Of a stretch of 37,110 nt of DNA, positions 9,027 to 34,044 are shown piece by piece. The position numbers were made by a program, and so were the translations under genes. Source of the stretch: Candidatus Propionivibrio aalborgensis (lineage in GTDB: Bacteria > Pseudomonadota > Gammaproteobacteria > Burkholderiales > Rhodocyclaceae); assembly GCF_900089945.1 (NCBI RefSeq), contig NZ_FLQY01000035.1:1-37110 (forward strand), in the 5' to 3' direction. Under the pieces are notes generated by a model. The model saw only the letters and a list, made by a program, of their open reading frames with translations. It was not told the origin of the DNA and did no database searches. The first letter of the stretch is position 1. Every line of letters starts with the position of its first letter.

Positions 9027-9036
9027 ACGGCACCCG

Positions 9037-12597: not shown

Positions 12598-12818
12598 ATC
12601 GATTGGTCGAAGCCGCCACGGGGTGGCCGAAAGTCGTCTGCCCGGAAGATTCCTGCCACAGCGGCGGCCAGGGAAAATGACAGGTATCCGGATTTCCGAC
12701 GAGGTGTCTTTGCCTCTTGCCCGAGAACTAACCGAGCTTTTTTCGGCCCAATGCGATTGGGGATAAGGCAGTAAAGCGAACTGAGTAGTCGTCACCACAG
12801 CAACGGAGAAAACAGGAA
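12598..12818 (+). other. Intergenic region with one possible 29-codon reading frame
   Basis: 221 bases before the glucosidase gene. An ATG at 12677, preceded by AGGGAA, opens a 29-codon frame ending at 12766 (starts MTGIRISDEV, ends AQCDWG). It could be a leader peptide or chance. No good -35/-10 pair or terminator hairpin was recognised. Confidence 0.3.
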
Positions 12819-15572
12819 ATGAAAAAAGCCGAATACACCAGACTTGAAGAAGCCCGGGAAGGAAAGATTGGCTGGAAGAAATGGGGCCCCTACCTCAGCG
12901 AACGTCAGTGGGGAACCGTGCGTGAGGACTACAGTGAGAACGGCGACGCCTGGAATTTCTTCACCCACGACCATGCCCGCTCGCGCGCCTACCGATGGGG
13001 CGAAGACGGTCTGGCCGGCATTTCCGACGACAAGCAGCGGCTGTGCTTCGCGCTGGCGCTGTGGAACGGCAAGGATCCCATCCTCAAGGAACGACTCTTC
13101 GGCCTGACCAACAGCGAAGGCAACCACGGCGAGGATGTGAAGGAGTACTACTTCTACCTCGACAGCACGCCGACCCACTCGTACATGAAATATCTCTACA
13201 AGTATCCGCACGCGGCCTACCCCTACGCCGACCTGGTGGATACAAACCGCAGTCGCAGCCGGCACGAGATGGAGTATGAACTGCTGGATACCGGCGCCTT
13301 CAGTGATGACCGCTATTTCGACGTCTTCGTGGAGTATGCCAAAGACGGGGCGGAAGACATCCTCGCAAAGATTACGGTGGCCAACCGCGGGCCGGACGCC
13401 GCCGAACTGCACGTCTTGCCGACGCTCTGGTTTCGTAACGACTGGGCGCCGTGGATTGCCAAATCCAACCGGGCGGATCAGAAACCAAACCTCAAGCAGA
13501 TCAAGGCGGCGGCGGGAACGAACGCGGTCGCGGTGTCGCATCCGTCGCTGGGCGAATTCGTGCTCGCCTGCGAAGGCGAGGTGCCGCTGCTGTTCACCGA
13601 GAACGACACAAACAGCGCGCGGCTCTTTCCCGGCCAGAACAACGCAAGCCCGTACGTCAAGGACGGCATCAACAACTACGTCGTGGATGGCAGTCGGGAT
13701 GCCGTGAATCCGGAGAAACAGGGCACCAAAGTCGCAGCGCATTATCGGCTGATGGTGGAGCCTGGCCAGTCGACCTCGGTGCGTTTGCGCCTGACGAATC
13801 AGGCTGCAGTCCGCGAGCGTGGCAAGCCCAAGACAGCGGCCACTGTTTTTGGCGGACCGTTTGACAAGATCTTCGACGCACGGCAGCAGGAAGCAGACGA
13901 CTTCTACCAGGCCGTGATTCCCCCGAGTGTTTCGCCGGACGAAGCCGGAGTGATGCGTCAGGCACTTGCCGGGATGCTGTGGAGCAAGCAGTACTTCTTC
14001 TTCGACGGCGACAACTGGCTGGATGAGCACAATACGAACCCCCTTCATTCCGGATATCAGAAGGGCCGGAATTCGGAGTGGTTCCACATGCTGAATGAAG
14101 ACATCATCTCGATGCCCGACAAATGGGAGTACCCCTGGTATGCGGCCTGGGATCTGGCTTTTCACACGCTCCCGCTGGCTATCGTGGACCCGGACTTCGC
14201 CAAGGAGCAGATGAAGCTGATGCTCAAGGGCACCTACCTGCACCCGAGCGGCCAGATGCCGGCCTATGAGTGGAATTTCAGCGACGTGAATCCGCCGGTT
14301 CATGCCTTCGCCACGCTCTTCCTGCTGCGCACCGAACAGGCGCAGCGCGGTGCGATGGACGTCGATTTTCTCAGGGAAACTTTCAACAAACTGGTACTGA
14401 ATTTCACCTGGTGGGTGAACCGCAAGGATCGCTTTGGCAAGAACGTTTTCGAGGGCGGTTTTCTGGGGCTGGACAACATCAGCGTATTCGACCGCAGCGC
14501 ACCGCTGCCTACCGGGGGGCACCTTGAGCAGGCGGACGGTACCGCCTGGATGTCGCTGTTCAGCCAGAACATGCTGGAACTCGCGATTGCCCTCGCTGCC
14601 CATGACCGCACCTATGAGGACATGGTCTTCAAATTTGCCGAGCACTTCTACTACATCGCCATGGCCATGAACAAAACCGGCCAGGACGGCATGTGGGACG
14701 AGGAGGACGGCTTCTATTACGACCTGCTGCGCTTGCCCGACGGCAGCGCGACGCGACTCAAGGTGCGCTCGATGGTTGGGTTGTTGCCCCTGTGCGCCAC
14801 CACGGTCATCGAAAAGGCACAGCGCGAGTCCATTCCAGGTACGCTGGCCCAGATTTTTGAACGCCTGCGCCGCATGCCCGAGCTCAAGAAATCCATCCAC
14901 CCTACCGGCGTGGGGCATTTCGGCGTAGAGGAGCGGGGGATCTTGTCCATGGTCAATCCGGAGCGTTTGCGCCGGATACTGACGAAGATGCTCGACGAGA
15001 ACGAGTTCTTGAGTCCATACGGCATCCGCTCGCTGTCCAAATTTCACGAGAAGCACCCGTTCGTTTTTCACGTCGAGGGCCAGGAGTTCCGGGTGGACTA
15101 CCTGCCGGGCGAGTCGGACAGCGGCATGTTTGGCGGTAACTCCAACTGGCGAGGGCCGATCTGGGTACCTGTGAACACCATGATCATTCGTGCCCTGTTG
15201 AATTTCTACCTGTACTACGGCGATAGCTTCAAGATCGAGTGCCCGACGGGTTCGGGGGTGATGATGAATCTCTTCGAGGTGAGTCGGGAGATTGCGGGGC
15301 GGCTCATCCGGATCTTCACTCGTGATGAAAACGGCCAACGCGCGGTCTATGGCGGTGAACAGACATTCCAGTCCGATCCTCAATGGCGTGAATACATCCT
15401 GTTTTACGAGTATTTCCACGGTGACAATGGTGCCGGACTCGGCGCCAGCCACCAGACCGGTTGGACGGGCATCGTGGCCAAGCTCATCGAGCTCTTCGGA
15501 TTCATGGACGCCGAAAAGTTGTTGAAAGAAGGCAAGAAGTCAGCGTTCGCATTGCGCACGAAGGCGACATGA
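12819..15572 (+). CDS. Glucosidase of the GH63 / MGH1-like superfamily
   Basis: 917 residues, starting at an ATG with GGAG nine bases upstream. It matches a bacterial and fungal family annotated as 'glucosidase' (relatives of yeast YMR196W) with an (alpha/alpha)6 barrel of the GH63/mannosylglycerate hydrolase type. Visible segments: the conserved opening 'EARxGKIGWKKWGPYLSERQWGTVREDYS', 'WNFFTHDHARSRAYRWGEDG', the barrel stretch 'WEYPWYAAWDLAFHTLPLAIVDPDFAK', 'GQMPAYEWNFSDVNPPVHAFA' and 'SNWRGPIWVPVN'. There is no signal peptide, so it acts in the cytoplasm. The substrate is not established; an alpha-glucoside is likely by family. The glucokinase gene starts 46 bases later and would capture released glucose. 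A large unbroken frame on the opposite strand is a codon-bias shadow. Confidence 0.9.
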   Translation: MKKAEYTRLEEAREGKIGWKKWGPYLSERQWGTVREDYSENGDAWNFFTHDHARSRAYRWGEDGLAGISDDKQRLCFALALWNGKDPILKERLFGLTNSEGNHGEDVKEYYFYLDSTPTHSYMKYLYKYPHAAYPYADLVDTNRSRSRHEMEYELLDTGAFSDDRYFDVFVEYAKDGAEDILAKITVANRGPDAAELHVLPTLWFRNDWAPWIAKSNRADQKPNLKQIKAAAGTNAVAVSHPSLGEFVLACEGEVPLLFTENDTNSARLFPGQNNASPYVKDGINNYVVDGSRDAVNPEKQGTKVAAHYRLMVEPGQSTSVRLRLTNQAAVRERGKPKTAATVFGGPFDKIFDARQQEADDFYQAVIPPSVSPDEAGVMRQALAGMLWSKQYFFFDGDNWLDEHNTNPLHSGYQKGRNSEWFHMLNEDIISMPDKWEYPWYAAWDLAFHTLPLAIVDPDFAKEQMKLMLKGTYLHPSGQMPAYEWNFSDVNPPVHAFATLFLLRTEQAQRGAMDVDFLRETFNKLVLNFTWWVNRKDRFGKNVFEGGFLGLDNISVFDRSAPLPTGGHLEQADGTAWMSLFSQNMLELAIALAAHDRTYEDMVFKFAEHFYYIAMAMNKTGQDGMWDEEDGFYYDLLRLPDGSATRLKVRSMVGLLPLCATTVIEKAQRESIPGTLAQIFERLRRMPELKKSIHPTGVGHFGVEERGILSMVNPERLRRILTKMLDENEFLSPYGIRSLSKFHEKHPFVFHVEGQEFRVDYLPGESDSGMFGGNSNWRGPIWVPVNTMIIRALLNFYLYYGDSFKIECPTGSGVMMNLFEVSREIAGRLIRIFTRDENGQRAVYGGEQTFQSDPQWREYILFYEYFHGDNGAGLGASHQTGWTGIVAKLIELFGFMDAEKLLKEGKKSAFALRTKAT

Positions 15573-15581
15573 AATTCTGGG

Positions 15582-15609
15582 TTGCGGCGACGTCAACAGG
15601 CGCTATGCT
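15582..15609 (+). promoter_or_regulatory. Weak candidate promoter before glk
   Basis: TTGCGG at 15582-15587 and TATGCT at 15604-15609 with a 16-base spacer lie in the 46-base gap. Spacing and match are only moderate, and the initiation point would fall at the start codon, so the gene may instead be read from the glucosidase transcript. Confidence 0.25.
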
Positions 15610-15618
15610 GGATGAGCC

Positions 15619-16605
15619 ATGTTGATTCTAGCGGGCGACATCGGTGGAACATCGACCCGATTGGCCTATTTCGACACTGCTGACGGAAAGCTGACGCCGG
15701 TTGTCGAAGATCGGTTTTCAAGTCGCGATGCAGGGGGCTTGGAGGAAATCGTCGGCCGTTTCGCCCGCGAGCACGGACTGAAGGCTGAGCGGGCCTGTTT
15801 TGGAATTGCCGGTCCGGTCCGGCAGGGAACGGTGAAAACGCCAAATCTTCCGTGGAGCGTGGATGCTTGCGAGTTGGCACGCGGCCTGGGTCTTGGGGAA
15901 GTGCAACTCATCAACGACCTTGAGGCCAACGCCTACGGTATCGACGCGCTTCTCCCCGAAGATTTCGCTGTTCTCAATCCCGGATGTCCCGATCCTGCCG
16001 GCCCCATTGCCGTGGTTTCGGCAGGTACCGGCCTTGGAGAGGTTCTGGCCTATTGGGATGGCAGCGTCCATCGGCCGCTTCCGAGCGAAGGGGGGCACGC
16101 CGACTTCGCTCCCCGTAACGAATTGGAAACGGCGTTGCTCCTTCACCTGCGCAGCGAGCATGGACGGGTCAGCACGGAGCGGGTGGTTTCCGGCCCCGGG
16201 CTGTACAATATTTACCGCTTCCTGCGCGACGCCGGCCATTTTCGTGAAACTCCCGCCGTAGCCGAGGCCATGCGCCAAGGCGATCGGTCTGCCGCTATTG
16301 CCAAAGCAGCCCTGGCCGGCGAATGCACGCTTTGCGACAAAGCCCTGGATCTGTTTGTTTCTCTGTACGGCGCGGAGGCCGGCAATGTCGCGCTCAGGGT
16401 GTTGGCCACCGGCGGTATCTATCTCGGGGGTGGCATTGCGCCGAAAATCATCGAGCGCCTCAAGGGGCCCGGCTTTATGCTGGCTTTTTGCGCCAAGGGG
16501 CGTCTCAGTCCGCTGCTCGAGAATGTCCCGGTGCGGGTTATTCTCAATGACCGAACAGCCCTTTTCGGCGCAGCGCGCTGCGCGATGTGCCACAAGACAG
16601 AATAG
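15619..16605 (+). CDS. glk: Glucokinase (PF02685 type)
   Basis: 328 residues, close to E. coli Glk in length. ATP-phosphate motif LAGDIGGTSTRLAYFD at the N-terminus, then CFGIAGPV, LINDLEANAYGI (which carries the catalytic Asp), VSAGTGLGEVL and PSEGGHADFAPR with the sugar-contacting Glu and His. The C-terminal ATGGIYLGGGIAPKI completes the fold. It phosphorylates glucose with ATP to glucose 6-phosphate in the cytoplasm. Its position directly after the glucosidase suggests that the pair salvages glucose from an intracellular glucoside. It is not of the ROK type; a separate ROK kinase occurs at 31146-32051. Confidence 0.94.
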   Translation: MLILAGDIGGTSTRLAYFDTADGKLTPVVEDRFSSRDAGGLEEIVGRFAREHGLKAERACFGIAGPVRQGTVKTPNLPWSVDACELARGLGLGEVQLINDLEANAYGIDALLPEDFAVLNPGCPDPAGPIAVVSAGTGLGEVLAYWDGSVHRPLPSEGGHADFAPRNELETALLLHLRSEHGRVSTERVVSGPGLYNIYRFLRDAGHFRETPAVAEAMRQGDRSAAIAKAALAGECTLCDKALDLFVSLYGAEAGNVALRVLATGGIYLGGGIAPKIIERLKGPGFMLAFCAKGRLSPLLENVPVRVILNDRTALFGAARCAMCHKTE

Positions 16606-16641
16606 ACGGCATAGGGCGGAAAACAACAGGAAGCAAATGCC

Positions 16642-17484
16642 ATGACCTCCAACAACTCTGTTTGGCTGATTACCGGTTGTTCGACCGGCTTCGGCCGCGA
16701 ACTTGCGCGCATCCTGCTTCAGCGTGGCCATAGCGTCGTGGTGACGGCACGCAAACCGTCGACTCTCGATGAATTCAGCTCGGCCGAAAACGCACTTGTC
16801 GCGGCATTGGACGTCACCGTACCCGGGCAAATCGCTGACGTGGTCCGGCAGGCGCTGGCGCGGTTCGGACATATCGACGTGCTGGTGAATAACGCGGGCT
16901 ACGGCTATCTTTCTGCCATCGAGGAAGGTGAGGACGATGAGGTTCGCGCCATGTTCGAAACCAACGTTTTCGGCCTGGCCAACATGACCAAGGCCGTACT
17001 CCCCGGCATGCGCGAACGCGGTCAAGGCCACATCGTCAATATTTCGTCGATGGGCGGGTTGATCGGCTTCCCCGGCATCGGCTACTACAACGCTACCAAG
17101 TTTGCCGTCGAGGGCCTCTCCGAAGCCCTGGCCAAGGAAACCGCGTCCCTCGGCATCAAGGTCACGATCGTCGAGCCTGGGCCTTTCCGCACGGACTGGG
17201 CGGGCCGCTCCCTCAGGACTCCAAAGAACGCGATTGCCGACTATGCACAATCCGCCGGTGCACGACGCGCAGCAGTCCGGGGCTATAGCGGCAGTCAGCA
17301 AGGTGACCCGGTGCGTGGCGCCGAAGCCATCATTCAAGCCGTCGAATCGCCTGAACCACCGCTGCATTTGCTCCTGGGTCGGCCGGCATACGAAATGACT
17401 GTCGCCAAGTTCAAGGAGTTTTCAGCGGAAATGGAGAAATGGCGCGAAGTTTCTCTGGGCGCGGATTTCCCTGACGCGGGCTGA
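16642..17484 (+). CDS. Classical short-chain dehydrogenase/reductase
   Basis: 280 residues. Rossmann cofactor motif TGCSTGFG at about 11-18, NNAG near 88-91, catalytic Ser in NISSMGG, and the YxxxK pair in YYNATKFAVEGL, so it should be an active NAD(P)H oxidoreductase. An Arg after the second strand (TARKPS) suggests NADP preference. The C-terminal 'PGPFRTDWAGRSL' is common in SDRs annotated as retinol- or 3-oxoacyl-type reductases, which does not fix the substrate. It lies 36 bases after glk on the same strand, and a hairpin immediately after the stop may end the transcript. Confidence 0.92.
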   Translation: MTSNNSVWLITGCSTGFGRELARILLQRGHSVVVTARKPSTLDEFSSAENALVAALDVTVPGQIADVVRQALARFGHIDVLVNNAGYGYLSAIEEGEDDEVRAMFETNVFGLANMTKAVLPGMRERGQGHIVNISSMGGLIGFPGIGYYNATKFAVEGLSEALAKETASLGIKVTIVEPGPFRTDWAGRSLRTPKNAIADYAQSAGARRAAVRGYSGSQQGDPVRGAEAIIQAVESPEPPLHLLLGRPAYEMTVAKFKEFSAEMEKWREVSLGADFPDAG

Positions 17485-17487
17485 TAA

Positions 17488-17510
17488 CCGAAGGTCTGCT
17501 CAGACTTCGG
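17488..17510 (+). terminator. Hairpin after the SDR gene
   Basis: CCGAAGGTCT, a GCTC loop and AGACTTCGG form a 9-bp stem with one bulged G, starting 4 bases after the stop codon. There is no run of T after it, so it may be a weak or Rho-assisted terminator. Confidence 0.45.
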
Positions 17511-17797
17511 CCACACTAAATGTGGATATCCGTATTCCGTGTTCACATTCCGTAGCCAGTGCTGCGTTGCAGCATTTAGCGGCGAATCATGATGAGCTTA
17601 TGGTTTTTTAACTGCCTCATTTGTGCCCACAAAAGACATTCAGGATTTCCGCAGCAGTGGCAGCAATGCAGCGATTCCGGACGGCCAGGGGGAATGATCG
17701 AAGAATATTTTTCCGGTGACGCGATGATTGGGGCAATGCTGTTTGAGAGGCCGCTCATCTCGTCATTGCAGCCATTCGATCATCGTCATTGGAGAAT
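17511..17797. other. Gene-free stretch, nothing recognised
   Basis: About 290 bases. One 83-codon frame (17589-17840) is present, but its composition (Trp, Cys and His rich, no family resemblance) and its run into the ribozyme-like region argue against a gene. It may be debris from an earlier insertion. Confidence 0.5.
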
Positions 17798-17799
17798 GT

Positions 17800-18195
17800 G
17801 GGCGTGTGCCGCAGGCACACAGGAAGGAAGTTCGCTATGAACTGACGAACTGAAGATTTGTGTTGAAATTGCACGGAAGATGAGGGTAGGTTGGTCCCTC
17901 GGTATCGGCTTTAAGGAGCAGGCCTCAAACCACCCCAAGGTGCTGCGGTCAAGAGCCGTGGTGGTGAGCGTTGGGGCAATAGTCCGAGAAATACCTTGGG
18001 CAGGTATGGATCAGAGAGACGAACGAAAGTGAACCTTCGATGAGGCGTCTTAATCCAATGATTTGTCATCAAAACCAGAAGCCGCTCGTACTTCTGGGAT
18101 AAGCTTGCCGGGCACCTGATTACTGGGCAAGCGGCGAAAAAAATGGAAACGCGTGCGGCGGATTTCATGATGTCTTCACAGAAAAAATGTTGGTG
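17800..18195 (+). ncRNA. Probable group II intron fragment (5' ribozyme domains, no maturase)
   Basis: The stretch is non-coding but dense in short stem-loops of group II domain I style: GTGTGCC/GGCACAC (17804-17820), GTTC/GAAC shortly after, GAGGG/CCCTC (17882-17900) and ATACCT/AGGTAT (17991-18007). The purine-rich GAACGAAAGTGAACC lies at 18021-18035. It begins near a GTGTG, the type of 5' end such introns have. The wording of the sequence matches my memory of the 5' non-coding part of bacterial group II introns that precedes the reverse transcriptase gene. No reverse transcriptase and no domain V follow; the opposite-strand cytochrome b5-like gene ends at 18204. So this would be a 3'-truncated relic. 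It could also be another structured RNA. Confidence 0.55.
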
Positions 18196-18203
18196 ATGAA
18201 TAT

Positions 18204-18590
18204 CTATTGCCTTGCGGGTGCGGACGATGTCTCGCCAAGCACCCCGATCAGGTAAGCGCCGAGCAGCCCATCGGCCTCTGCCGAATGCTTGCGTCCCTTT
18301 GTTTTCGTCCGATAAGCTTGCGATGCCTCCCTGCCGCACCAGGGGACGATGATGCTCGGTTTCGAGGGGTGCTTCGGCAGATAGGCACTCAGATCATAGA
18401 CCTTGCCTTCAATCGCCATCCAGCAATCTTCCCCGGCTGAATGCTGCGCAAGTTCCACGAGAGAAAAGCGCTTTTCGCTTGCCGCGACGGGTGCCTCCAC
18501 CGCCACCTCGCCGCCACGACCGGCGATCCAGGTGATCAAGATGCAGAGCCAAAAAAGCGCTGTGCCGAGTATGAATAGTTTGCGCATCAT
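18204..18590 (-). CDS. Cytochrome b5-like heme protein, membrane-anchored
   Basis: 128 residues from the first of two tandem ATGs; the ATGATG overlaps the upstream TGA, so translation is coupled. An N-terminal membrane segment (about 5-23, FILGTALFWLCILITWIAG) is followed by a cytochrome b5-like domain: FSLVELAQHSAGEDCWMAIEGKVYDLSAYLPKHP, then 'CGREASQAYRTKTKGRKHS'. The two expected heme-ligand histidines are present (about 74 and 102), although the classical HPGG is replaced by HPSK, as I recall for many bacterial members. It probably receives electrons from the flavocytochrome encoded just upstream and passes them on at the periplasmic face. Last gene of the eight-gene operon. Confidence 0.85.
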   Translation of the reverse strand: MMRKLFILGTALFWLCILITWIAGRGGEVAVEAPVAASEKRFSLVELAQHSAGEDCWMAIEGKVYDLSAYLPKHPSKPSIIVPWCGREASQAYRTKTKGRKHSAEADGLLGAYLIGVLGETSSAPARQ

Positions 18591-19840
18591 CGGAAGTCGA
18601 AGCGCTCGAAGTAGATGGCGTCCTGCGGTACATCGCGCGATTCGAGAATGCCTATTACAGATGACAGTAATCCGGGCGGTCCGCACAAATAGCATCTGCA
18701 GCCGGCCAGCGTTCCAGCATCGGGCAGGGTATTGGCCAGCGCCTGTGCGTCGCCCAGACCGACCCGGATCTCCAGATCGAGCGTCGCTTGCCGGCTGGCC
18801 AGAGTACGCAGTTCTTCGACATAGGCGGCGTCCGCCGGTTCGCGATAAAAATAGTGCAGACGCACCGGATGGCCGAGCGGCTCGCCGCGCAGAACGGCAA
18901 TGAAAGGGGTAATACCAATACCACCGGCAACCCAAAGCTCGGGGCCATTCCCCCGATCACGCAAAAAGCTGCCGAACGGCCCCTGCACCCGCACGGCGAC
19001 GCCCGCCGTCAGCGATTGCAGTTGGTGCGTACAGCCCCCCAGCGACTTGACGCCAATGCGCAGCTTGCCGTCGGAATCGACCGCGCTGATCGTGTAGGGG
19101 TGATACTCCCGGCACCCCTGAAAATGTGGGCCGTCGAAAAAAGCAAACATGGCGAACTGACCGGGCTTCGCGTTCAGCAACGTGGCCAGTGGACGCAGCG
19201 ATATCTCAAGCACGCCATTGGCATGGGTTTCGACATGATCGACGAGGAATGGTCGGGCAGCCAGTCCGCAGTCGATACGCAGAACCCGCCACAACATCAG
19301 CACGGTGGCCAGCAACAGTGCAAACAGTAGCGTCTGGCTCAGGCCAAGCAGGATCAGATGTGCAAATCCGAAAAGCACGGCCAGTACCAGCAGGCCGTGC
19401 AGCCAGCGCCAGACGGGGTAGCCCAGCTTGCGCGAAAAAGCAGCAGCCAGGCCGCACATCAGGCAAATTAAAGCCGCCCAGCCAAGCCAAATCGGCCATC
19501 GTTCCCGCCATGGCGAGAGTGTAGCCCACGCCTGATGCGCCGAGTGCTGCGCGGCATCAACGGCGAAGGCTAGGGGATGAACAAGCAGCACTAGATAGGC
19601 AAGCGTGCCCAGAACATGGTGCCATGTGTACATACGTTCGAGGCTACCAAAAAACTCGGTCAGCCGCACCTCGCGCAGCATCAGCAGCAGATTGGCCAGC
19701 AGCAACCCGCAACCGACCCAGCCAAGCACAATCCCGGCACTGCGTGCGACCGGCAAATCATCGGGGAAAGCCCAGAATACGGGCACCCCGACCAAGACAA
19801 GGGTGACCAGAGGAATCGACAGGCGATGTAGCGCTTTCAT
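18587..19840 (-). CDS. Ferric-reductase-like flavocytochrome (membrane heme domain + FAD/NAD(P) domain)
   Basis: 417 residues. About six membrane helices at 1-200 form a ferric-reductase-like domain with histidines suited to heme b: YTWHHVLGTLAYLVLLVHPLAF and WRWLHGLLVLAVLFGFAHL. The C-terminal half is a ferredoxin-NADP reductase fold: FAD motif REYHPYTISAV, FAD/phosphate loop VQGPFGSFL, NAD(P) motif AGGIGITPFIAVL and the terminal CYLCGPPGLL. It should carry electrons from cytoplasmic NAD(P)H through FAD and heme across the membrane, like NOX/FRE enzymes and MsrQ-type proteins. The start ATG overlaps the previous stop by 4 bases, and the downstream cytochrome b5-like gene is the likely electron partner. 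The final acceptor is unknown. Confidence 0.9.
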   Translation of the reverse strand: MKALHRLSIPLVTLVLVGVPVFWAFPDDLPVARSAGIVLGWVGCGLLLANLLLMLREVRLTEFFGSLERMYTWHHVLGTLAYLVLLVHPLAFAVDAAQHSAHQAWATLSPWRERWPIWLGWAALICLMCGLAAAFSRKLGYPVWRWLHGLLVLAVLFGFAHLILLGLSQTLLFALLLATVLMLWRVLRIDCGLAARPFLVDHVETHANGVLEISLRPLATLLNAKPGQFAMFAFFDGPHFQGCREYHPYTISAVDSDGKLRIGVKSLGGCTHQLQSLTAGVAVRVQGPFGSFLRDRGNGPELWVAGGIGITPFIAVLRGEPLGHPVRLHYFYREPADAAYVEELRTLASRQATLDLEIRVGLGDAQALANTLPDAGTLAGCRCYLCGPPGLLSSVIGILESRDVPQDAIYFERFDFR

Positions 19841-20145
19841 GGCGACTGGCGGACACTCGCTGGAGCTGAACGCAGGTGTTGGCAGAAATCCCGGCCACCG
19901 CCGGACACCTTCTTGCCCAGCTGCTCAGCCCGCGCTTCCATCTCGCGATGATGCTCGGCCTGGTAGGCCTCGCATTCAGCCAGCGCCGTAAAACCGCGAA
20001 TCCGGGCCTGATGCTCGATCCGCTCTTCCGGCGACATCAACTCCCAGCCACGCGTGTTGCTGTCGCTGGCCCGCCAAGGGCCACGTGCAAGGGCAGTTCC
20101 AGCAAAAATCAATAGCATGAAAATCACCCAACCACGTTTCCTCAT
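19837..20145 (-). CDS. Small exported protein, family unknown
   Basis: 102 residues with a signal peptide (MRKRGWVIFMLLIFAGTALA, cleavage after about 20-21). The mature part has WELMSPEERIEHQARIRGFTALAECEAYQAEHHREMEARAEQLGKK and two cysteines (about 58 and 88) that could form a disulfide. The 'MSPEER..H..R.....EC..Y...HH..M..RA...G' pattern recurs in many small periplasmic proteins of Betaproteobacteria, without known function. A good GGAGAAGGA site precedes the ATG. It overlaps both neighbours by 4 bases, inside the operon between the hydrolase and the flavocytochrome. Confidence 0.8.
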   Translation of the reverse strand: MRKRGWVIFMLLIFAGTALARGPWRASDSNTRGWELMSPEERIEHQARIRGFTALAECEAYQAEHHREMEARAEQLGKKVSGGGRDFCQHLRSAPASVRQSP

Positions 20146-21038
20146 ATTCCTTCTCCGCGACTGATGGCCCCATCGAGAAACTCGACGACAGTTCCGATGT
20201 GCTGCTCGATTTCGCTATATTCATCATGACTGCCGGGCATCAGCAGCAGGCGCACCCGGTCGTCGCGGCGATTGGCGTAAATATCCCGCGCTTCACTGAC
20301 CGGCACGGTGACGTCATTGGTGCCGTGTGCCAGTAGTACCGGGCAAACAATCGAGCGGATGGTATGGCGCGGTGCGATCGCGTCGAAACGATGGCCGATG
20401 ACGCGCTGCACGTAGAATAGAATATAGGCGCCGAGCGGCCAGTAGGAAATCCGTTTTGCAGCCAGCCAGCGGCGCATCATCGCCGCCGGATGGGCGAAGG
20501 CCGCCAGACTCACCACCGCAGCCAGATCACGCCGCCGGGAAGCCAGCAACAGTGCGGCGCCCGCCCCAACCGAATGAGCGATTACAGCGACGCGCTGCGC
20601 ATCGACTTCGGCTTGCGCCTGCAGCCAATCAACAGCGCTACTCAGATCTTCGGCAAAGCGCGGCAAGGAGGTAAACGTATCGCCGTCGCTGCGCCCGTGG
20701 CTGCGTGCGTCGAAAAAAAACAGTGCGTAACCGGCGGTATGCAGCGGCATGGCCAGTGGCAGCATCATTTCAGCATTGCCCCCCCAACCATGCAGAATAG
20801 CCAGCGCTGGCGTACCGCCAGACACCGCTTTTTCAGCTGGGATGAACCAGCCGAACAAGGTCTTGCCGCGTACCGCAGGAATTCTCACTTCGCGCCACGG
20901 CAAGCCATCGGGAACACCTTGCCCGCCGACGCGCGGCGCGGCCAGGCCAGCACGAATCAGACGATGGACGAGCAGCATGATCAAGGTGGCCGCCGACAGC
21001 AGGCCGAGGGCAATCCAGAGCGCTTCCGGAACGCTCAA
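20142..21038 (-). CDS. Alpha/beta-hydrolase, membrane-anchored
   Basis: 298 residues. An N-terminal membrane anchor (about 7-27) is followed by an alpha/beta-hydrolase fold: oxyanion segment LHGWGGNAEM, FFDARSHGRSDG, nucleophile elbow AHSVGAGAA (G-x-S-x-G type with Ala for the first Gly), acid in HGTNDVTVP and His in PGSHDEYSE. All three catalytic residues are therefore visible. The start is TTG, supported by GGGGAGAG about 5 bases upstream and by its overlap with the ATPase stop (TTGA). The substrate is unknown. Its place between an ABC exporter and redox proteins suggests it acts on the exported or modified lipid or ester, which is speculation. Confidence 0.88.
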   Translation of the reverse strand: MSVPEALWIALGLLSAATLIMLLVHRLIRAGLAAPRVGGQGVPDGLPWREVRIPAVRGKTLFGWFIPAEKAVSGGTPALAILHGWGGNAEMMLPLAMPLHTAGYALFFFDARSHGRSDGDTFTSLPRFAEDLSSAVDWLQAQAEVDAQRVAVIAHSVGAGAALLLASRRRDLAAVVSLAAFAHPAAMMRRWLAAKRISYWPLGAYILFYVQRVIGHRFDAIAPRHTIRSIVCPVLLAHGTNDVTVPVSEARDIYANRRDDRVRLLLMPGSHDEYSEIEQHIGTVVEFLDGAISRGEGI

Positions 21039-21766
21039 AGCGCTCTCCCCTCGCCGGCTTCCTCGTAGGTCCGCCCGTCGCGGATGTGATAGATGCGCCT
21101 GAAGGTCGGAATGATCTTCTCGTCGTGCGTGACGACGATGATCGCCGTGTTGTACTGGCGCGCCATGTCGTTGAGGATGCGCATGACGGCGAGGGCGCGT
21201 TCGCTGTCGAGCGGCGCAGTCGGCTCATCGGCAAGAATCACCGGCGGCTGGTTGGCCAGCGCGCGGGCAATCGCCACACGCTGCTGTTCGCCGCCCGACA
21301 GCTCGGACGGCTGCGCCCTGGCACGATGACCGACGTCGAGCGCGGTGAGCAGCTCGCCCGCACGCTGGCGTGCCTGGGCATTGGGCTGCCCGGCAAGCAT
21401 CGGCAGCAAGGCGACGTTGTCGGTCACATCGAGAAAGGGGATCAGGTAGGGCGCCTGGAAGACAAAGCCGATCCGGTCGCGGCGCAGCGCCCGCAGGTCG
21501 GTGCTTTTCCAGCCACCGTCGAAGATCGTTTCGTCGCCCAGCGTCATCCACCCGGCCGTTGGTTCGATGATGGCACCCAGACATTTGAGCAGGGTACTCT
21601 TGCCCGATCCGGAGGGGCCGATCAGGCCGACCACCTCGCCGGGCGCAACGCTCATGTTCACATCCTTCAAGGCGTCGACCGCCGTATCGCCCTTGCCGTA
21701 ACGCTTGCGCAGACCTTCGATGTGGATGCCGAAGCCTTCCTTTTCTGTCTGCTTCTCAGTACGCAT
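21035..21766 (-). CDS. ABC transporter ATP-binding protein (LolD/MacB/DevA type)
   Basis: 243 residues from the ATG at 21766, one base after the permease stop (TAAGATG); a TTG at 21778 would add 4 residues. Walker A GPSGSGKST (50-58), Q-loop FQAPYLIPF, signature LSGGEQQRVAIARALAN, Walker B VILADEPTAPLD and switch VVTHDEK are all intact. It powers the FtsX-fold permease encoded immediately upstream. Transporters of this class (type VII, mechanotransmission) extrude lipoproteins, peptides, antibiotics or glycolipids with a HlyD-like adaptor. Confidence 0.94.
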   Translation of the reverse strand: MRTEKQTEKEGFGIHIEGLRKRYGKGDTAVDALKDVNMSVAPGEVVGLIGPSGSGKSTLLKCLGAIIEPTAGWMTLGDETIFDGGWKSTDLRALRRDRIGFVFQAPYLIPFLDVTDNVALLPMLAGQPNAQARQRAGELLTALDVGHRARAQPSELSGGEQQRVAIARALANQPPVILADEPTAPLDSERALAVMRILNDMARQYNTAIIVVTHDEKIIPTFRRIYHIRDGRTYEEAGEGRAL

Positions 21767-21767
21767 C

Positions 21768-22973
21768 TTAGCCGCCAATCGCCGTTGCCGGATCGACGCG
21801 CAAAGCGGCGCGGATGGCCAGGGTGCTGGCCAGCGCGCAGATCACCATGACCACGGCAAAGCCGCGTGCCGCGTCGCCGGGTTCGAGCAAAACAAATTTC
21901 GGAAAAACCGGCGCCCACAGCGTGGCCACCGTCTTGCCGACGACGAAGCCGATCAGCCCGAGGCCGAGCGCTTGCTGCAGGATCATCCCGGCAATCGTCC
22001 GGTCGCGCGTGCCGATCAGCTTGAGCACGGCGATCTCGCGGATCTTGCCGAGCGTCATGGTGTAGATGATGAAGGCGACGATCGCTGCGCTGACAATCGC
22101 CAGAATCACCAGAAACATGGCGATCTGCCGCGCCGAGGTGGCGATCAGCTTGGCCACCAGGATCTCTTCCATCTGCTCGCGCGTATAGGCTTGGACGTGT
22201 TTCCAGCGGCGCAGCTCGGCCGCCACCGCCTCCGGCGCCGCGCCGCCGCTGACCTGGACGAGCACTGCATTGACGTTGTGGTTACTGCTCTGCGAGGCCT
22301 GGATGGCCTCCAGCAGACCGGGAACGCCCGGCCGGTTGAGCGCCGGGTTGGCTGCCGTGCGCGCGCGTTCGTTAAGAACAGCGTCGTTATCCTTGAGAAA
22401 CTGCGCTTCCTGCGCGTCCTTCAGCGGGATGAAGACCATCGGATCGCCACCCGACGACACCATGCGCCGCGTCAGGCCGACCACGGTGTAGTCATGGCGA
22501 CGTATACGGATGCGCTCGCCGAGCACGAAGCCGGTCTTGACGTCGGCAACGGCTTCGTAGTGACTGCGCGTGATCTGGCGACCGGCGACCAGATAGCCGG
22601 GCTCGCCCGGCTGCCCCGGCTCGAAGCCAACGACCATGGCGCGCACATCGCTGGCGCCTGTCTTTTCCTGCATTCGCACCTGCATGGTCAGATAGGTGAC
22701 GTTGGCGGCGCGCGCCACGCCGGGCATGCCCAGAATGCTGCGATAAAGGTCGTCGTGCAGACTCGACGATTCCGCATAGGGGCCCAAAGTATCTTTCTGC
22801 ACCACCCACAGATCGGCGCCGCTGTTGCTGAGCAGCGCTTTCGCGTCGTCGACCATGCCGCGGTAAATGCCGGCCATCGACAGCGTAACGCCGATCAGCA
22901 GACCGAGTCCGACGCCGGTGAGCACGAAGCGTCCCCACGAATGAAGAATGTCACGGCCGGCCAGGCTGATCAT
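21768..22973 (-). CDS. ABC transporter permease, FtsX/DevC type
   Basis: 401 residues. One N-terminal helix (about 14-35, GRFVLTGVGLGLLIGVTLSMAGIY), a large extracytoplasmic domain of about 220 residues, then three C-terminal helices. The last part (MFLVILAIVSAAIVAFIIYTMTLGKIREIAVLKLIGTRDRTI) is the typical FtsX signature. This four-helix plan is that of MacB, LolC/E and DevC. The start overlaps the stop of the HlyD-like gene by 4 bases. The order adaptor-permease-ATPase (B-C-A) matches the DevBCA exporters of cyanobacteria, which export glycolipids; that substrate is not implied here. Confidence 0.92.
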   Translation of the reverse strand: MISLAGRDILHSWGRFVLTGVGLGLLIGVTLSMAGIYRGMVDDAKALLSNSGADLWVVQKDTLGPYAESSSLHDDLYRSILGMPGVARAANVTYLTMQVRMQEKTGASDVRAMVVGFEPGQPGEPGYLVAGRQITRSHYEAVADVKTGFVLGERIRIRRHDYTVVGLTRRMVSSGGDPMVFIPLKDAQEAQFLKDNDAVLNERARTAANPALNRPGVPGLLEAIQASQSSNHNVNAVLVQVSGGAAPEAVAAELRRWKHVQAYTREQMEEILVAKLIATSARQIAMFLVILAIVSAAIVAFIIYTMTLGKIREIAVLKLIGTRDRTIAGMILQQALGLGLIGFVVGKTVATLWAPVFPKFVLLEPGDAARGFAVVMVICALASTLAIRAALRVDPATAIGG

Positions 22974-24187
22974 GAACGCGGCCCGATCAGTGAATCTACG
23001 ACCTTGATGCGGCTGCCTGCCGTCAGTTCCTTTTCATTATGCAACACAACGCGGTCACCGGCCTTGACGCCGATCAGCACCTGCACCTTGCCGTCGAGAC
23101 TCGACAGACCGACCTGCACCGCGACGAAGCGCAATGTACCGTCTTCATACAGCCACACGCCAGTCTGGCCGCCCTGCTGCCTGATGCTGGCATTGGGCAG
23201 CAGCAGGCCATCCTGCGTGGCAGGCAGGCTCAGTGTCACCTCGGCCAGCTCGCCAAGCGAAACACCACTTGGAATACTGTCGAATGCCACCTGCGCGACA
23301 CGCTCTTCGGTCACGCTGTCGCTCAGCAGTTCCAGCCGCGCCACCTTGCCGGGCTGCGACTGCGCCGGATTCGAACGCAGGACGACACCGGCCGACAGGC
23401 CGACCGCCAGGCCGCGCGAACGCCCCTGATCGAAGCGTACCCGGATCCATAGACTGGCCGGATCGATCAGTCGGACCACTGCCTGCCCGGCGACCACGGT
23501 CGAGCCCGGCTCGGCATCGCGCGCCGTGATCACGCCATCGCTCGGCGCCAGCAGGCGCACCATGTCGCGTTGCTGGCGCAGAGCGTCGCGTTCGGCCTGC
23601 AGGCGCCTTACGTCTTGTCCGGCAGCGGCAAGGTTGGCTTGCGCACCACTGCTTACGGCCTGCGCCGACACCTGTTCCTGCTGTTTGCCCTCAACGGCAC
23701 TGGCACTGACGAAATTCTTTTCACCGAGATCGACATAGCGCCGGGTATTCATCACCGCCAACTGACTGCGCGCCTGCGCGTCCCGACGCTGCGCCTCGGC
23801 CGCCGCGATGGCGCTGCCGGCGCGGGCAATCGAAGCATCGAGCGCCGCCACCCGTTCGTCGAGATCGACCGGGTCCATTTCAGCCAGCAGCTGCCCGGCT
23901 CTCACCGACTCGCCGACATCGACCAGCACCTTGAGCACACGGCCAGCAGCGGTCGGGCCGACGAGGTAGGAACGGCGCGCCTCAACGGTGCCAATGCCGA
24001 ACAGCGCGGGCGATACGCTGCCCTCTGCTACCTGCACGGTTGTTACCCGAATCGGCGCCAGCGGCCCCGAACGCAGCACGACAATGCCGAAGCCGAACAG
24101 CAAGGCCAGCAGCAGCACAATCAGGCCGAGGCGACCAACCAGCTGACGAAAAACCGGAAGGGAAAAAAGACCGAAAAATGCTTTCAT
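22970..24187 (-). CDS. HlyD/DevB-type periplasmic adaptor (membrane fusion protein)
   Basis: 405 residues from the ATG at 24187, which overlaps the regulator's TGA; the open frame goes further upstream but inside the regulator gene. N-terminal membrane anchor about 17-38, first half of a lipoyl-like domain (GTVEARRSYLVGPTAAGRVLKVLVDVGESVRAGQLLAEMD), a long coiled-coil hairpin rich in Ala, Gln and Arg (about 100-190), the second lipoyl half (LLAPSDGVITARDAEPGSTV) and beta-barrel domains to the end. Such adaptors connect an inner-membrane ABC pump to an outer-membrane channel. No TolC-like gene is in the window, so the channel must come from elsewhere. Confidence 0.92.
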   Translation of the reverse strand: MKAFFGLFSLPVFRQLVGRLGLIVLLLALLFGFGIVVLRSGPLAPIRVTTVQVAEGSVSPALFGIGTVEARRSYLVGPTAAGRVLKVLVDVGESVRAGQLLAEMDPVDLDERVAALDASIARAGSAIAAAEAQRRDAQARSQLAVMNTRRYVDLGEKNFVSASAVEGKQQEQVSAQAVSSGAQANLAAAGQDVRRLQAERDALRQQRDMVRLLAPSDGVITARDAEPGSTVVAGQAVVRLIDPASLWIRVRFDQGRSRGLAVGLSAGVVLRSNPAQSQPGKVARLELLSDSVTEERVAQVAFDSIPSGVSLGELAEVTLSLPATQDGLLLPNASIRQQGGQTGVWLYEDGTLRFVAVQVGLSSLDGKVQVLIGVKAGDRVVLHNEKELTAGSRIKVVDSLIGPRS

Positions 24188-24798
24188 GCACACGCTCCAA
24201 TCGCTCGCTGATAAAGCGCAAAGACGCGCTCGGCCTCGACCTCCATGAACTCGCAGCTGCCAGCCAGCATCGACTGCATGACCAGTCCCTGAACCGTGCC
24301 GATGAACAACGAAGCCGCAGCGCCATGGTCGACGCCAATGCCGAGCTGCCCGCGCGCTTCGACGCCGCTGAGCAGACGCAGCAGCAACTGGCGGTAACGC
24401 TGCAGCAGGCTGCGCACACGCGCCTTGACCGGCGTGTCTTCCGGTTGCTGCAACTCGCTGAAGATGAGTCTGGGCACGCCGGGGTGTGCGACGACAAAAC
24501 GCACATGCGCAAGAAACACGGCATGCAGGCCATCCCATGGCGTCGGCGCCTGATGTTCGGCGTTTTCGAGCACCGCATGCAGATTGTTTTCAATATGCGC
24601 CATGACCGCCAGCCAGATCGCATCTTTGCTCGGGAAGTGCCGGAATACCGCACCCTGCGTCAGACCCATGAGGCCGGCAATGTCACCGGTGGTGATCGAC
24701 GCCGGCGCACGCAGCGCCGTCAGGGCCAGCACCGCCGTGACGATCTCGCTCTGACGCGCTTCGGTCGGGATGCGCACTCGGGCTGTTGTTTGCTGCAT
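24184..24798 (-). CDS. TetR/AcrR family transcriptional regulator
   Basis: 204 residues from the ATG at 24798, which has GGTGG about 6 bases upstream; a GTG at 24807 would add 3 residues. The N-terminal helix-turn-helix is 'ITTGDIAGLMGLTQGAVFRHFPSKDAIWLAVM' (about 33-64), the standard TetR DNA-reading segment. The C-terminal ligand domain ends in a Cys- and Ala-rich tail. It is the first gene of the export/redox operon, so it probably represses its own operon and is released by a ligand related to the exported substrate. A palindrome lies just upstream. Confidence 0.93.
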   Translation of the reverse strand: MQQTTARVRIPTEARQSEIVTAVLALTALRAPASITTGDIAGLMGLTQGAVFRHFPSKDAIWLAVMAHIENNLHAVLENAEHQAPTPWDGLHAVFLAHVRFVVAHPGVPRLIFSELQQPEDTPVKARVRSLLQRYRQLLLRLLSGVEARGQLGIGVDHGAAASLFIGTVQGLVMQSMLAGSCEFMEVEAERVFALYQRAIGACA

Positions 24799-24812
24799 AT
24801 CTGCCACCGTAG

Positions 24813-24830
24813 TAAGTGTTCAATTACTTA
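24813..24830. promoter_or_regulatory. Candidate TetR operator
   Basis: TAAGTGTTCAATTACTTA is an interrupted palindrome (TAAGT, 8 bases, ACTTA) 15 bases upstream of the regulator ATG. A further ACTTA stands at 24857. A minus-strand TATACT (24833-24838) beside it could be the -10 box, so bound regulator would block transcription. The -35 box is not clear. Confidence 0.45.
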
Positions 24831-24858
24831 GCAGTATAGCAACAATATTATAATTTAC

Positions 24859-25020
24859 TTATGAATTGCCCAAAACGACGCTACGCCGTCCCATGGCTGA
24901 CACGACCAATAAAAAGACGATGCCGGATTTCTCACGACCGACAAGCCCCCCGAGAAACACACTTGCCTTAGAGGCGCTCTCCTCCAGTTCGGCCCGGACA
25001 GCGTCTTCGACGGCAATCAC
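24859..25020 (-). other. Possible remnant reading frame, unidentified
   Basis: A 53-codon minus-strand frame from a GTG at 25020 (starts VIAVEDAVRAELEESASKAS, later FLGGLVGREKSGIVF). It looks protein-like but I recognise no family, and an in-frame TAG lies a few codons upstream. It lies downstream of the NhaR-like relic in the same direction and may be debris of a lost gene. Confidence 0.25.
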
Positions 25021-25046
25021 CGGGCGCCACTGTCGCTATCTGTCAT

Positions 25047-25175
25047 TCACTCCTCGCCTGGCAGAAAGGGCGAGCAGGCCGAAGCGGTAATCGTCAGCAC
25101 GCACGGATGACTCAGCTTGCGCTCGATGGAAATCGCGTAATACTCGGTGCGCACTTCGGCGGCACGGCCGAGCAC
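25047..25175 (-). pseudogene. C-terminal relic of a LysR-type NhaR-like regulator
   Basis: The minus-strand frame reads AAEVRTEYYAISIERKLSHP followed by CVLTITASA and a short tail before the stop. 'VRxxFYAISVERRLxHPAVVAI' is the conserved end of NhaR-type activators as I know them. Only about 42 codons remain. The upstream part of the gene is replaced by the IS91-like relic, which meets it at about 25170. No N-terminal helix-turn-helix and no nhaA gene are in the window. Confidence 0.6.
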
Positions 25176-25448
25176 ATCCTCGCCCACGGTTTTGCGCGCC
25201 CGCTGTGCCGACTGTGGCCACGAATTCCTAATCGCGTATTCCGGCAAAGGTCGTGGCGTCTGACCGTCCTGTACAACCAAGCGCCTGCGCTATAACTTGG
25301 CGCACGATCCAGCGATCCTCAATACAGAGCGCTACATATCTTCCTGAACGCCATTGAGCGGACGCTGCGGCAAGGCAGTCCAGGTACAATCTCACAATCG
25401 CGCCTGGGGGCCGTCGCCCTCATCCACCGTTTCGGATCATCCCGGTGA
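25172..25448 (+). pseudogene. IS91-family transposase relic (frameshifted, deleted)
   Basis: Pieces of an IS91-type (Y2) transposase can be read in order. ILAHGFAR lies near 25172-25199. RCADCGHEFLIAYSGKGRGV, the zinc-ribbon region, begins at 25201 and is followed by an in-frame TGA. KRLRYNLAHDPAILN lies at 25279-25323. After a frameshift come HIFLNAIERTLRQGSPG and RLGAVALIHRFGSS (25335-25442), then a stop. The zinc-ribbon end is fused directly to the KRLRY segment, so the region between, with RQWVL in intact members, is deleted. The catalytic HUH-Tyr part is missing. The element is dead and probably old. Confidence 0.7.
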
Positions 25449-25713: not shown

Positions 25714-25800
25714 AGGCAGTAAAAGTTTGACGTATTCGGAGTTGTCCATCGTAGAAACTTCCAATCGTGAGCCGCCAAGCACATGAGAGGAAGAAACCAG

Positions 25801-26232
25801 ATGGACAAGTTTGAAAGTTTGAGCCACACGGCGTGGGACTGCAAATATCACGTGATATTCATTCCAAAGCGTCGGCGCAGGACATTGTACGGAGAGTTGC
25901 GCAAGCATCTCGGAGAAGTATTCCGCAAGCTTGCTGCTCAGAAAGAGAGCCAGATAGTGGAAGGGCATTTGATGCCTGACCACGTGCACATGATGATTGC
26001 GATACCGCCGAAGTACGCGGTGTCGCAGGTGATTGGCTTCATCAAGGGCAAGAGCGCAATTCATTTGGCGCGGGTGTATGGGGAACGCAAACGCAACTTT
26101 GTCGGGCAGCATTTCTGGGCAAGAGGGTACTTCGTATCAACAGTCGGTCGCGATGAGGCCGTTGTACGGGAGTACATCAAGAAGCAAGAGCAAGAGGACG
26201 AGCGGTTGGACCAACTCGGCCTGTGGAGATGA
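25801..26232 (+). CDS. tnpA: IS200/IS605-family transposase TnpA (Y1 HUH)
   Basis: 143 residues from the ATG at 25801, with AGAGGAAG about 7 bases upstream; an in-frame ATG at 25783 is a worse choice. The HUH pair is in LMPDHVHMMI (His61, His63), and the catalytic tyrosine is in VVREYIKKQEQED (Tyr125), followed by the helix that carries the conserved Gln/Asp. Typical landmarks KYHVIFIPKRRRR, IPPKYAVSQVIGFIKGKSA and GQHFWARGYFVSTVG are present. The enzyme cuts and rejoins single-stranded DNA at the element ends, guided by the hairpins. Full length with no frameshift. Confidence 0.95.
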   Translation: MDKFESLSHTAWDCKYHVIFIPKRRRRTLYGELRKHLGEVFRKLAAQKESQIVEGHLMPDHVHMMIAIPPKYAVSQVIGFIKGKSAIHLARVYGERKRNFVGQHFWARGYFVSTVGRDEAVVREYIKKQEQEDERLDQLGLWR

Positions 26233-33438: not shown

Positions 33439-34044
33439 TCAGGCGAGACTGACCAGCTCCGGGTCGTCGCCGTGATCGATAAGAATCCGTCGCACACGAT
33501 CCTGCCACAGACTGGTAAAAGCTTCGGCGACCGCCGGGTCGCGTTCGCCGGCCAAAAGGCGTTGCAGCAACGGGCCCGTACGCGGATCGGGCGTGACGCG
33601 TTCAAGGTGCAGCGAGGCGCTTAGCATCCTGCCGTTGTCACGGCGAGTGAAAGCGATTCCACCCGGCAGATCGAGCGCCTCGAAGCCAAGCAGATTGCGT
33701 CGCGAAAACTGTCCGGCGATTCCCTTGAAGCCGCCGATTCCGGCGGCACCGGTGATCAGGCCGACGACGGCGGCCATCACCCCGGCGACACCTTCTTCCT
33801 GTGCATCGCGGAAGCTGACCTCGATCTCACCGCGCTCCGGCAGTTCGTCCGGATACAGCGCGGCCAATACGCGGCGGGTGAGCAGATAGGCGCCGGCAAC
33901 GGTCGGGCAGGAATGGCCGGCGAGCTTCACCGCATCGACATAGCGGTATTCGATGATGCCGGCCTCCGCCGCGCCGAGAAACTCGGCCAGCCGGTCGTGC
34001 ATGACAACAGACGGAACTTCGGCGAAGAAGGACGGAAAGGCCAT
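33439..34044 (-). CDS. FmdE-family protein (formylmethanofuran dehydrogenase E-like)
   Basis: 201 residues. The motif AGHSCPTVAGAYLLTRRVL (Gly43-His44-Ser45-Cys46-Pro47) matches the GHxCP motif of FmdE/PF02663 proteins, followed by 'PERGEIEVSFRDAQEEGVAGVMAAVVGLITGAAG' and 'GFKGIAGQFSRRNLLGF'. No C-terminal zinc finger is present. Family members bind metal and are found outside methanogens with unclear roles, often near molybdenum or respiratory genes. There are no methanofuran genes here. It is 9 bases downstream of gloA in the same direction, probably cotranscribed. Confidence 0.8.
   Translation of the reverse strand: MAFPSFFAEVPSVVMHDRLAEFLGAAEAGIIEYRYVDAVKLAGHSCPTVAGAYLLTRRVLAALYPDELPERGEIEVSFRDAQEEGVAGVMAAVVGLITGAAGIGGFKGIAGQFSRRNLLGFEALDLPGGIAFTRRDNGRMLSASLHLERVTPDPRTGPLLQRLLAGERDPAVAEAFTSLWQDRVRRILIDHGDDPELVSLA

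Follow-up and report, generated by a model that had tools for sequence, protein, structure and literature searches.

An operon of Candidatus Propionivibrio aalborgensis that joins a MacB/FtsX-type exporter to a NOX-like flavocytochrome, a cytochrome b5 and a hydrolase

The operon considered here is a chain of eight minus-strand genes in a stretch of 37,110 bases from Candidatus Propionivibrio aalborgensis (the window, which is the whole of contig C35 in a 3.8-Mb genome assembly of 405 contigs with 5.01% contamination). A MacB-type pump works with an adaptor and a channel, and in flavocytochromes of the NOX family electrons run outward from NAD(P)H by way of FAD and a pair of hemes. The first half of the operon resembles the DevBCA and MacAB-TolC exporters (type VII, ABC3) in consisting of an adaptor, an FtsX-type permease and an ATPase, with MacB_PCD and FtsX domains. 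It differs from MacAB in that permease and ATPase are separate, whereas MacB is one chain, and from both in that the eight genes include no outer-membrane factor and are joined to redox genes. An operon carried by plasmids has the same first four genes and the same type of operator, with a permease 74–76% identical, but continues with a cytochrome c' and an outer-membrane channel where the window has the hydrolase, a small protein, the flavocytochrome and the cytochrome b5. The flavocytochrome resembles SpNOX in its full-length fold, two bis-His motifs and FAD and NAD(P)H domains, and differs from it in its genetic coupling to the b5 and a small Cys protein and in its FAD motif, HPYT. The best PDB match of the b5 is 1cxy (E 1.8e-32), Ectothiorhodospira vacuolata cytochrome b558, in which a Cys pair forms a disulfide; two Cys align with it and the alignment is ungapped up to the second heme His, but the window protein has an N-terminal transmembrane-like helix and its gene lies behind that of the flavocytochrome. 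MsrPQ and LcoA-BcnA, as treated in PMC5676040 and PMC9113575, likewise set a membrane heme protein and a periplasmic partner against oxidative damage; the eight genes include neither a molybdoenzyme nor a lipocalin, and the b5 is the likely carrier. The operon is not an MsrPQ system, having no molybdopterin partner MsrP among its eight genes and a fused flavin domain in the flavocytochrome, which the heme subunit of MsrPQ lacks. Those parts of the open-licence literature that were available, PMC5566968 and two surveys of arsenic-resistance (ars) genes included, describe neither the joined operon nor a module that combines small protein, NOX and b5, and no function for the plasmid-borne exporter half was found in that literature. 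We regard the redox module and its arsenic linkage as more novel than the exporter.

The features of the operon, in the order of transcription, are the following.

24811–24829, minus strand: putative TetR operator AAGTAATTGAACACTTACT, a palindrome 12 bases before the tetR ATG.
24184–24798, minus strand: tetR, TetR-family regulator of 204 residues, ATG start (PF00440, 28.2 bits, cut-off 24); ATGA, 4-base overlap with hlyD.
22970–24187, minus strand: hlyD, periplasmic adaptor of 405 residues with one transmembrane-like helix (PF13437 and PF16576 above cut-off; TIGR01730, 142.9 bits against 94.9); ATGA, 4-base overlap with ftsX.
21768–22973, minus strand: ftsX, MacB/FtsX-type permease of 401 residues (PF12704 and PF02687 above cut-off); TAA, one base between, then the ATG of abc.
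21035–21766, minus strand: abc, ATPase of 243 residues (PF00005, 119.4 bits); TTGA, 4-base overlap with the hydrolase gene.
20142–21038, minus strand: alpha/beta hydrolase of 298 residues with an N-terminal hydrophobic helix, TTG start (PF12146, 66.8 bits; AHSVGA motif); ATGA, 4-base overlap with the small-protein gene.
19837–20145, minus strand: small periplasmic-type protein of 102 residues with a signal-peptide-like N-terminus, Cys58 and Cys88 (sequence features); ATGA, 4-base overlap with fre.
18587–19840, minus strand: fre, NOX-like two-heme flavocytochrome of 417 residues (PF01794; SpNOX as best PDB relative); ATGA, 4-base overlap with the b5 gene.
18204–18590, minus strand: cytochrome b5 of 128 residues with one N-terminal transmembrane-like helix (PF00173, 53.8 bits against 23.7).
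18075–18097, minus strand: weak hairpin resembling a terminator, 3' of the b5 gene (hairpin scan).

Eight consecutive open reading frames (ORFs) thus run from the tetR ATG at 24798 to the b5 stop codon at 18204–18206, with six of the seven junctions being 4-base overlaps (ATGA or TTGA) and one a 1-base gap. This is the tight chain described in an earlier note on this DNA, which had also named the gene products. Pfam and NCBIfam assign known families to seven of the eight, and the names hold: TetR_N, HlyD_3/HlyD_D23, MacB_PCD with FtsX, ABC_tran, alpha/beta hydrolase, Ferric_reduct with FAD_binding_8, and Cyt-b5 by Pfam. Of the note's ferric-reductase-like flavocytochrome, the flavocytochrome stands and the ferric reductase gives way to a NOX-like protein with two hemes and the SpNOX fold; the small periplasmic protein is indeed a member of the operon, with the correction that it is a usual partner of the redox half. 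That the genes form a single TetR-controlled unit is likely, given a conserved palindrome directly 5' of tetR. Tight gene overlaps are frequent in bacterial operons; here they support co-transcription and are no proof of fixed stoichiometry. Terminator-like sites number nine in the scanned region against a chance mean of 6.5, which is near chance.

By comparison of sequences, the operon is a mosaic of three parts that are usually apart, namely an exporter (module A), a redox module (module B) and the hydrolase (part C). We favour, at a probability of about one half, the reading that TetR here controls a toxicant-response operon, put together from two older units and a hydrolase, in which both halves would act on the same class of insult. 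This reading is preferred because module B is linked to acr3 genes and is itself conserved, because A and B are joined, and because the exporter occurs beside heme proteins. Read from the sequence, its foundations are the gene chain, the operator-like site, the families, the heme ligands, the NOX fold and the conserved modules.

The small protein, the flavocytochrome and the anchored b5 form what, judged by gene neighbourhoods, is a conserved module. The alignment scan with fre gave 147 relatives, and the counts over 80 loci refer to the best 80 of these, with the b5 and the small protein scored as present beside fre at more than 40 bits. The b5 was found in 77 of the 80 loci and the small protein in 68; of 76 fre/b5 gene pairs, 36 share 4 bases and, by hand count, a further 32 share a single base. 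SpNOX is the best PDB relative of fre by sequence profile (E 2.3e-44, most of the length aligned) and also by fold, with TM scores of 0.80 and 0.84 for an AlphaFold2 model of pLDDT 88.5. The predicted heme ligands are the pairs H74-x13-H88 and H148-x12-H161, which pass a NOX-like filter, and by simple patterns the two bis-His pairs are present in 79 and 80 of the 80 relatives. The NADPH motif filter of PMC5676040 is matched by the window protein and by 68 of the 80 relatives; the FAD motif from the same paper, H[PSA]F[TS][LIMV], is matched by 63 of the 80, and the window protein with its HPYT does not match it.

The fold and the two-heme motif would suit an enzyme of the NADPH oxidase or ferric reductase kind, producing superoxide or reducing iron in the periplasm, with the b5 as an accessory. 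SpNOX makes superoxide according to PMC5676040, and in one of the joined loci described below (L083) a TonB-type receptor, by our reading, lies about 7 kb from the module. Even so, we consider this explanation unlikely: the strict FAD motif that most relatives carry is absent from the window protein, and the coupled heme partner in 77 of the 80 loci points to a protein acceptor.

Over 77 rows of the b5 alignment, C56 is conserved in 76, C85 in 77, H74 in 76 and H102 in 75. The N-terminal anchor and the cysteines place the b5 presumptively in the periplasm, and its domain is the single one of this kind found in the genome. In the small protein Cys58 and Cys88 are invariant among 47 sequences, and an AlphaFold2 model (pLDDT 81) is a helical hairpin. 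Pfam gave no match at E 0.01, NCBIfam none, and the fold search nothing at E 0.001; with E up to 1 against Pfam and the PDB there were only scattered weak matches, given by single or few members of the family, the best being DUF3106 (0.0084) and TetR_C_11 (0.0063). The domain family occurs in 39 of 99 sampled genomes. Among 25 ORFs with this domain in 22 loci, an OmpR-type response regulator gene is found no more than 500 bases from 10 (one via an over-long ORF), and 3 lie shortly before another ABC-FtsX-LolA-like set on the same strand (L226, L230, L239). In nine loci (L227, L228, L229, L231, L233, L238, L242, L243, L245) the gene is divergent to the OmpR-type regulator gene, mostly with a sensor kinase gene, a layout like that of CpxP/CpxAR. 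The neighbourhoods of these paralogues suggest that the small protein may act as a sensor in the manner of CpxP/Spy. One protein (L238, 7207–8082, contig C34 of genome G002) holds the small-protein domain three times, as three matches in one frame.

Searches of plasmids for module B yielded only distant NOX-like proteins of 28.6–29.0% identity (30 listed of 48 records), and these were set aside as copies; the one such locus viewed adjoins PepSY proteins and a two-component system. The window's own genome has two more NOX-like flavocytochromes of 28–30% identity (L060, L061), near genes that by eye encode a small secreted heme-protein-like product and two-component proteins, an arrangement resembling an SHP/DHC-type cluster. 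ATP synthase beta-subunit-like genes occur near 7 of the 80 module B loci, and in six B loci (L093, L096, L100, L101, L104, L105) such genes, assigned by eye, follow the b5 gene.

The arsenic linkage emerges from about 10 kb around fre in the 80 loci, which contain an ACR3-type arsenite pump in 17, ArsR/ArsC in 15, ArsJ in 6, its GAPDH in 6 and ArsA in 5. These names are by our reading, with Pfam applied to a single example each of ACR3, ArsR-ArsC and ArsJ. As controls we used 38 exporter and 20 hydrolase loci of similar stretch length, drawn from a different sample than the 80 B loci; there acr3 occurs in 2 of 58, one locus in each of the two groups, against 17 of 80 (Fisher p = 0.0024). All 17 acr3 genes share the strand of fre, and 10 of the 17 loci are named Accumulibacter or Nitrotoga. 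A second set of 12 B loci from the genome samples, whose genomes partly overlap, has ACR3 in 3.

Module A is widespread. At E ≤ 1e-30 the permease matches 36 of 148 sampled genomes, the window's own included, and the 38 exporter loci from other genomes contain abc in 38, hlyD in 37 and tetR in 33. Mean column identity of the permease is 83% in an alignment of 13 sequences, and relatives are present in 208 plasmid records, with clinical and environmental isolates among the records listed. The scores place the unit in the MacB/FtsX (type VII) superfamily (PF12704, 60.4 bits against 27; PF02687, 50.4 against 25.5; PF00005, 119.4 against 25) and fall below the curated levels for DevBCA (DevC 42 against 290.35, DevA 184.5 against 295.8, DevB 19.5 against 129) and for MacAB (MacB 184.5 against 966, MacA 70.8 against 342), in which permease and ATPase are not separate genes. 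By sequence the permease matches nothing in the PDB at E 0.01. Within 100 bases upstream of tetR, 37 of 39 exporter loci carry the palindrome AGTAA-N4-TTACT or AAGTA-N6-TACTT with no more than one mismatch (32 exact), against 1.1% of shuffled upstream sequences. The window's site at 24811–24829, counted among the 37, has one mismatch to this form and is the sole match within the window. As the same first genes recur on plasmids and the palindrome at tetR is conserved, the head of the operon is an old, mobile exporter unit with a likely autoregulatory site.

Downstream of this unit the genes change. The order tetR-hlyD-ftsX-abc-cytochrome c'-outer membrane subunit is found in Pelobacter pPRO2, a Klebsiella plasmid and a Providencia plasmid; an Aeromonas plasmid keeps the first four genes with the cytochrome gene as a fragment only. 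This cytochrome, present in 3 of these 4 loci, belongs to the c' family (PF01322) and has relatives in 184 plasmid records. The first two exporter junctions are 4-base overlaps in all four, and ftsX and abc are separated by 1 base in three of them and by 4 bases in Providencia. The plasmid operons adjoin Tn3-type transposases (L221, L223) or Tni-type genes (L222). On chromosomes, an outer-membrane factor lies 3' of the exporter in 5 of 38 loci (L178, L183, L188 and L192 by similarity, L173 by Pfam) and a c'-type cytochrome in 2 of 38 (L178, L180); L189 has a CxxCH protein with no Pfam match in this position and L197 a cytochrome b561. The remaining loci have unrelated genes or no same-strand gene there (ten listed ORFs were run against Pfam). 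A second exporter copy in the window's own genome, on contig C33 (L060, about 12800–18263), precedes a c'-like protein of 25.0 bits against a Pfam cut-off of 26.5; on the opposite strand lies a small-protein paralogue, and upstream of the copy an ORF similar by eye to the window ORF at 33442–34044. Heme proteins thus recur behind the exporter, as a minority. Proteins with CxxCH, considered as support in their own right, were rejected, since they follow the exporter in 3 of 36 chromosomal loci with enough downstream sequence, and in 7 of 42 once the second copy, L083 and the plasmids are added, too few to count.

The recurrence of heme proteins raises the option that the exporter moves heme or a porphyrin, with the b5 and cytochrome c' as clients or buffers. 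The transporter HrtAB has a heme role. HrtAB is described as a homologue of MacB in PMC5985334, and a review (PMC8277102) implicates MacAB in protoporphyrin efflux. We nevertheless hold a heme or porphyrin substrate to be very improbable, in view of the 78 of 80 fre-b5 loci with no such exporter in the stretch covered, the absence of a heme-transport family from the Pfam and NCBIfam matches shown, and a permease without a PDB relative by sequence.

The joining of exporter and membrane redox chain, a central claim of the earlier note, recurs in two further assemblies. Two samples of 148 and 379 genomes, both with the window's own genome, and 80 B loci besides the window were compared, and A and B are joined in 2 of the 80. 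L083, on a 3.46-Mb contig of an uncultured Rhodocyclaceae, has the order tetR-hlyD-ftsX-abc-small-fre-b5 with the hydrolase absent; L108 has abc-small-fre-b5 on a contig that ends at abc. L092, with a third ATPase match (39%) that lies on the opposite strand and has no permease beside it, was left out of this count. With the window being one whole contig of a fragmented assembly with measurable contamination, its two halves might be fragments fused in assembly or binning; this we regard as extremely improbable, since L083 shows the same order independently, minus the hydrolase, L108 repeats the abc-small-fre-b5 end and the reading frames are intact over the junctions. In the hlyD tree the window pairs with L083 (support 94). 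In the fre tree it stands beside a clade of L083 and unjoined Dechloromonas, with a Shimodaira–Hasegawa-like approximate likelihood ratio (SH-aLRT) of 91 on a branch that is not starred; L108 belongs to a separate, starred clade with Accumulibacter loci, in which 7 of 10 rows are ars-linked. The starred branches call for two or more changes of state both in the fre tree, where the count is made against the 17 ars-linked rows, and in the abc tree; each change may be a gain or a loss. At least two separate joinings of A and B would be the simplest reading.

Several results weigh against a toxicant-response operon acting as a unit. In 78 of the 80 B loci there is no exporter in the stretch covered, many of them being limited by contig ends. 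Six other sampled genomes hold A and B above the limits used, none with the two adjacent: the modules are on different contigs in G058, G062, G063 and G418 (in G062 on very short contigs and with a weak fre match) and are separated by about 244 kb in G086 and about 1.07 Mb in G302. In the abc tree L108 stands apart and the window is not paired with L083, and the joined label is no more clustered than in shuffles in the fre and abc trees. The acr3 linkage falls to 9 of 50 fre clusters at 80% identity and 3 of 11 at 60%, and is thus partly due to one lineage; the operon is not part of an ars operon, as the window contains no ars homologue, and the one acr3 match of its genome is on contig C12. 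A scan of 17600–25300, the region upstream of tetR included, found no sigma-70-like promoter. What follows the exporter is variable and often unrelated. Finally, G+C at third codon positions (GC3) is 0.82 in ftsX and abc and 0.66–0.68 from the hydrolase through b5; this step at the abc/hydrolase border would fit stacked parts, as weak evidence, because the other window genes cover 0.65–0.81.

The GC3 step, the variable downstream slot, the usual separation of the parts in the sampled genomes and loci and the missing hydrolase in L083 would all be expected if the promoter of a TetR-controlled exporter had captured the redox module and the hydrolase as independent cargo, co-regulated under one stress and never acting on the same molecule. 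This is a real possibility, to which we give less than even weight: the same two modules are joined in two separated lineages, and in the window tight couplings span the module borders. The same comparisons decide what the earlier note had drawn from the tight chain. Fixed stoichiometry and one function do not follow, A and B being mostly unlinked in other genomes, and the gene-neighbourhood check it had proposed went mostly against a fixed eight-gene system, with six genomes keeping the modules apart and nearly all redox loci showing no exporter in the stretch covered. A fixed system of eight genes is ruled out by the rarity of the linkage among the sampled genomes and loci.

The hydrolase speaks against such a system as well. 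It matches 25 of 148 genomes, and in 20 hydrolase loci permease, fre and b5 were all not found nearby. Overlapping reading frames apart, a search for a constant neighbour turned up none; the largest set that looks real covers 5 of the 20 loci. A Ser/Asp/His triad is likely from our reading of the sequence, and the gene may be a late insertion.

Under the favoured toxicant-response reading, an inducer would free TetR. The exporter proteins, together with a TolC-type channel whose gene lies elsewhere, would expel a toxic compound from the periplasm or the membrane. Cytosolic NAD(P)H would supply electrons, which the flavocytochrome would pass by way of FAD and its two b hemes to the b5 on the periplasmic side as the presumed acceptor. 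The b5 in turn would reduce a periplasmic acceptor, be it the toxicant itself, some species of a metalloid or metal, or a component of the envelope that has become oxidised. The small Cys protein could be a ligand-binding or acceptor partner, and an ester or lactone form of the compound may be the substrate of the hydrolase. The two halves would thereby remove and reduce one class of insult; that they serve one mechanism is what we infer. The review cited above (PMC8277102) ties MacAB pumps to peroxide defence and implicates them in porphyrin export, and PMC9113575 describes a cytochrome b561 and a periplasmic lipocalin that shield the Burkholderia envelope from peroxyl radicals; defence of the envelope is thus a plausible role for an exporter combined with a membrane heme reductase.

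A bolder form of this reading, which we put forward tentatively and with some doubt, is that small protein, NOX-like flavocytochrome and b5 are an undescribed periplasmic electron-delivery module for metalloid or toxicant defence, recruited beside different pumps, Acr3-type ones and, probably twice and independently, MacB/FtsX-type ones, and forming a redox-assisted pump here. It is likewise possible, though doubtful, that Acr3-type pumps are partners of the module in several betaproteobacterial lineages. In a redox-assisted pump the substrate, or the damage it causes, would be reduced at the periplasmic face during expulsion. If true, many genes called 'ferric reductase-like' or bacterial NOX-like would gain a testable role as electron suppliers to periplasmic b5, tied to metalloid and toxicant efflux. 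A phenotype for the exporter half would be useful in itself, given its 208 plasmid records.

Elsewhere in the window, a small transposase-like ORF, of REP/IS200 type by eye, lies upstream of the operon at 25783–26232 on the plus strand, and positions 5860–10053, also on the plus strand, hold a row of genes for a DUF3604 protein, a PPIC-type isomerase and a HupE/UreJ-type membrane protein.

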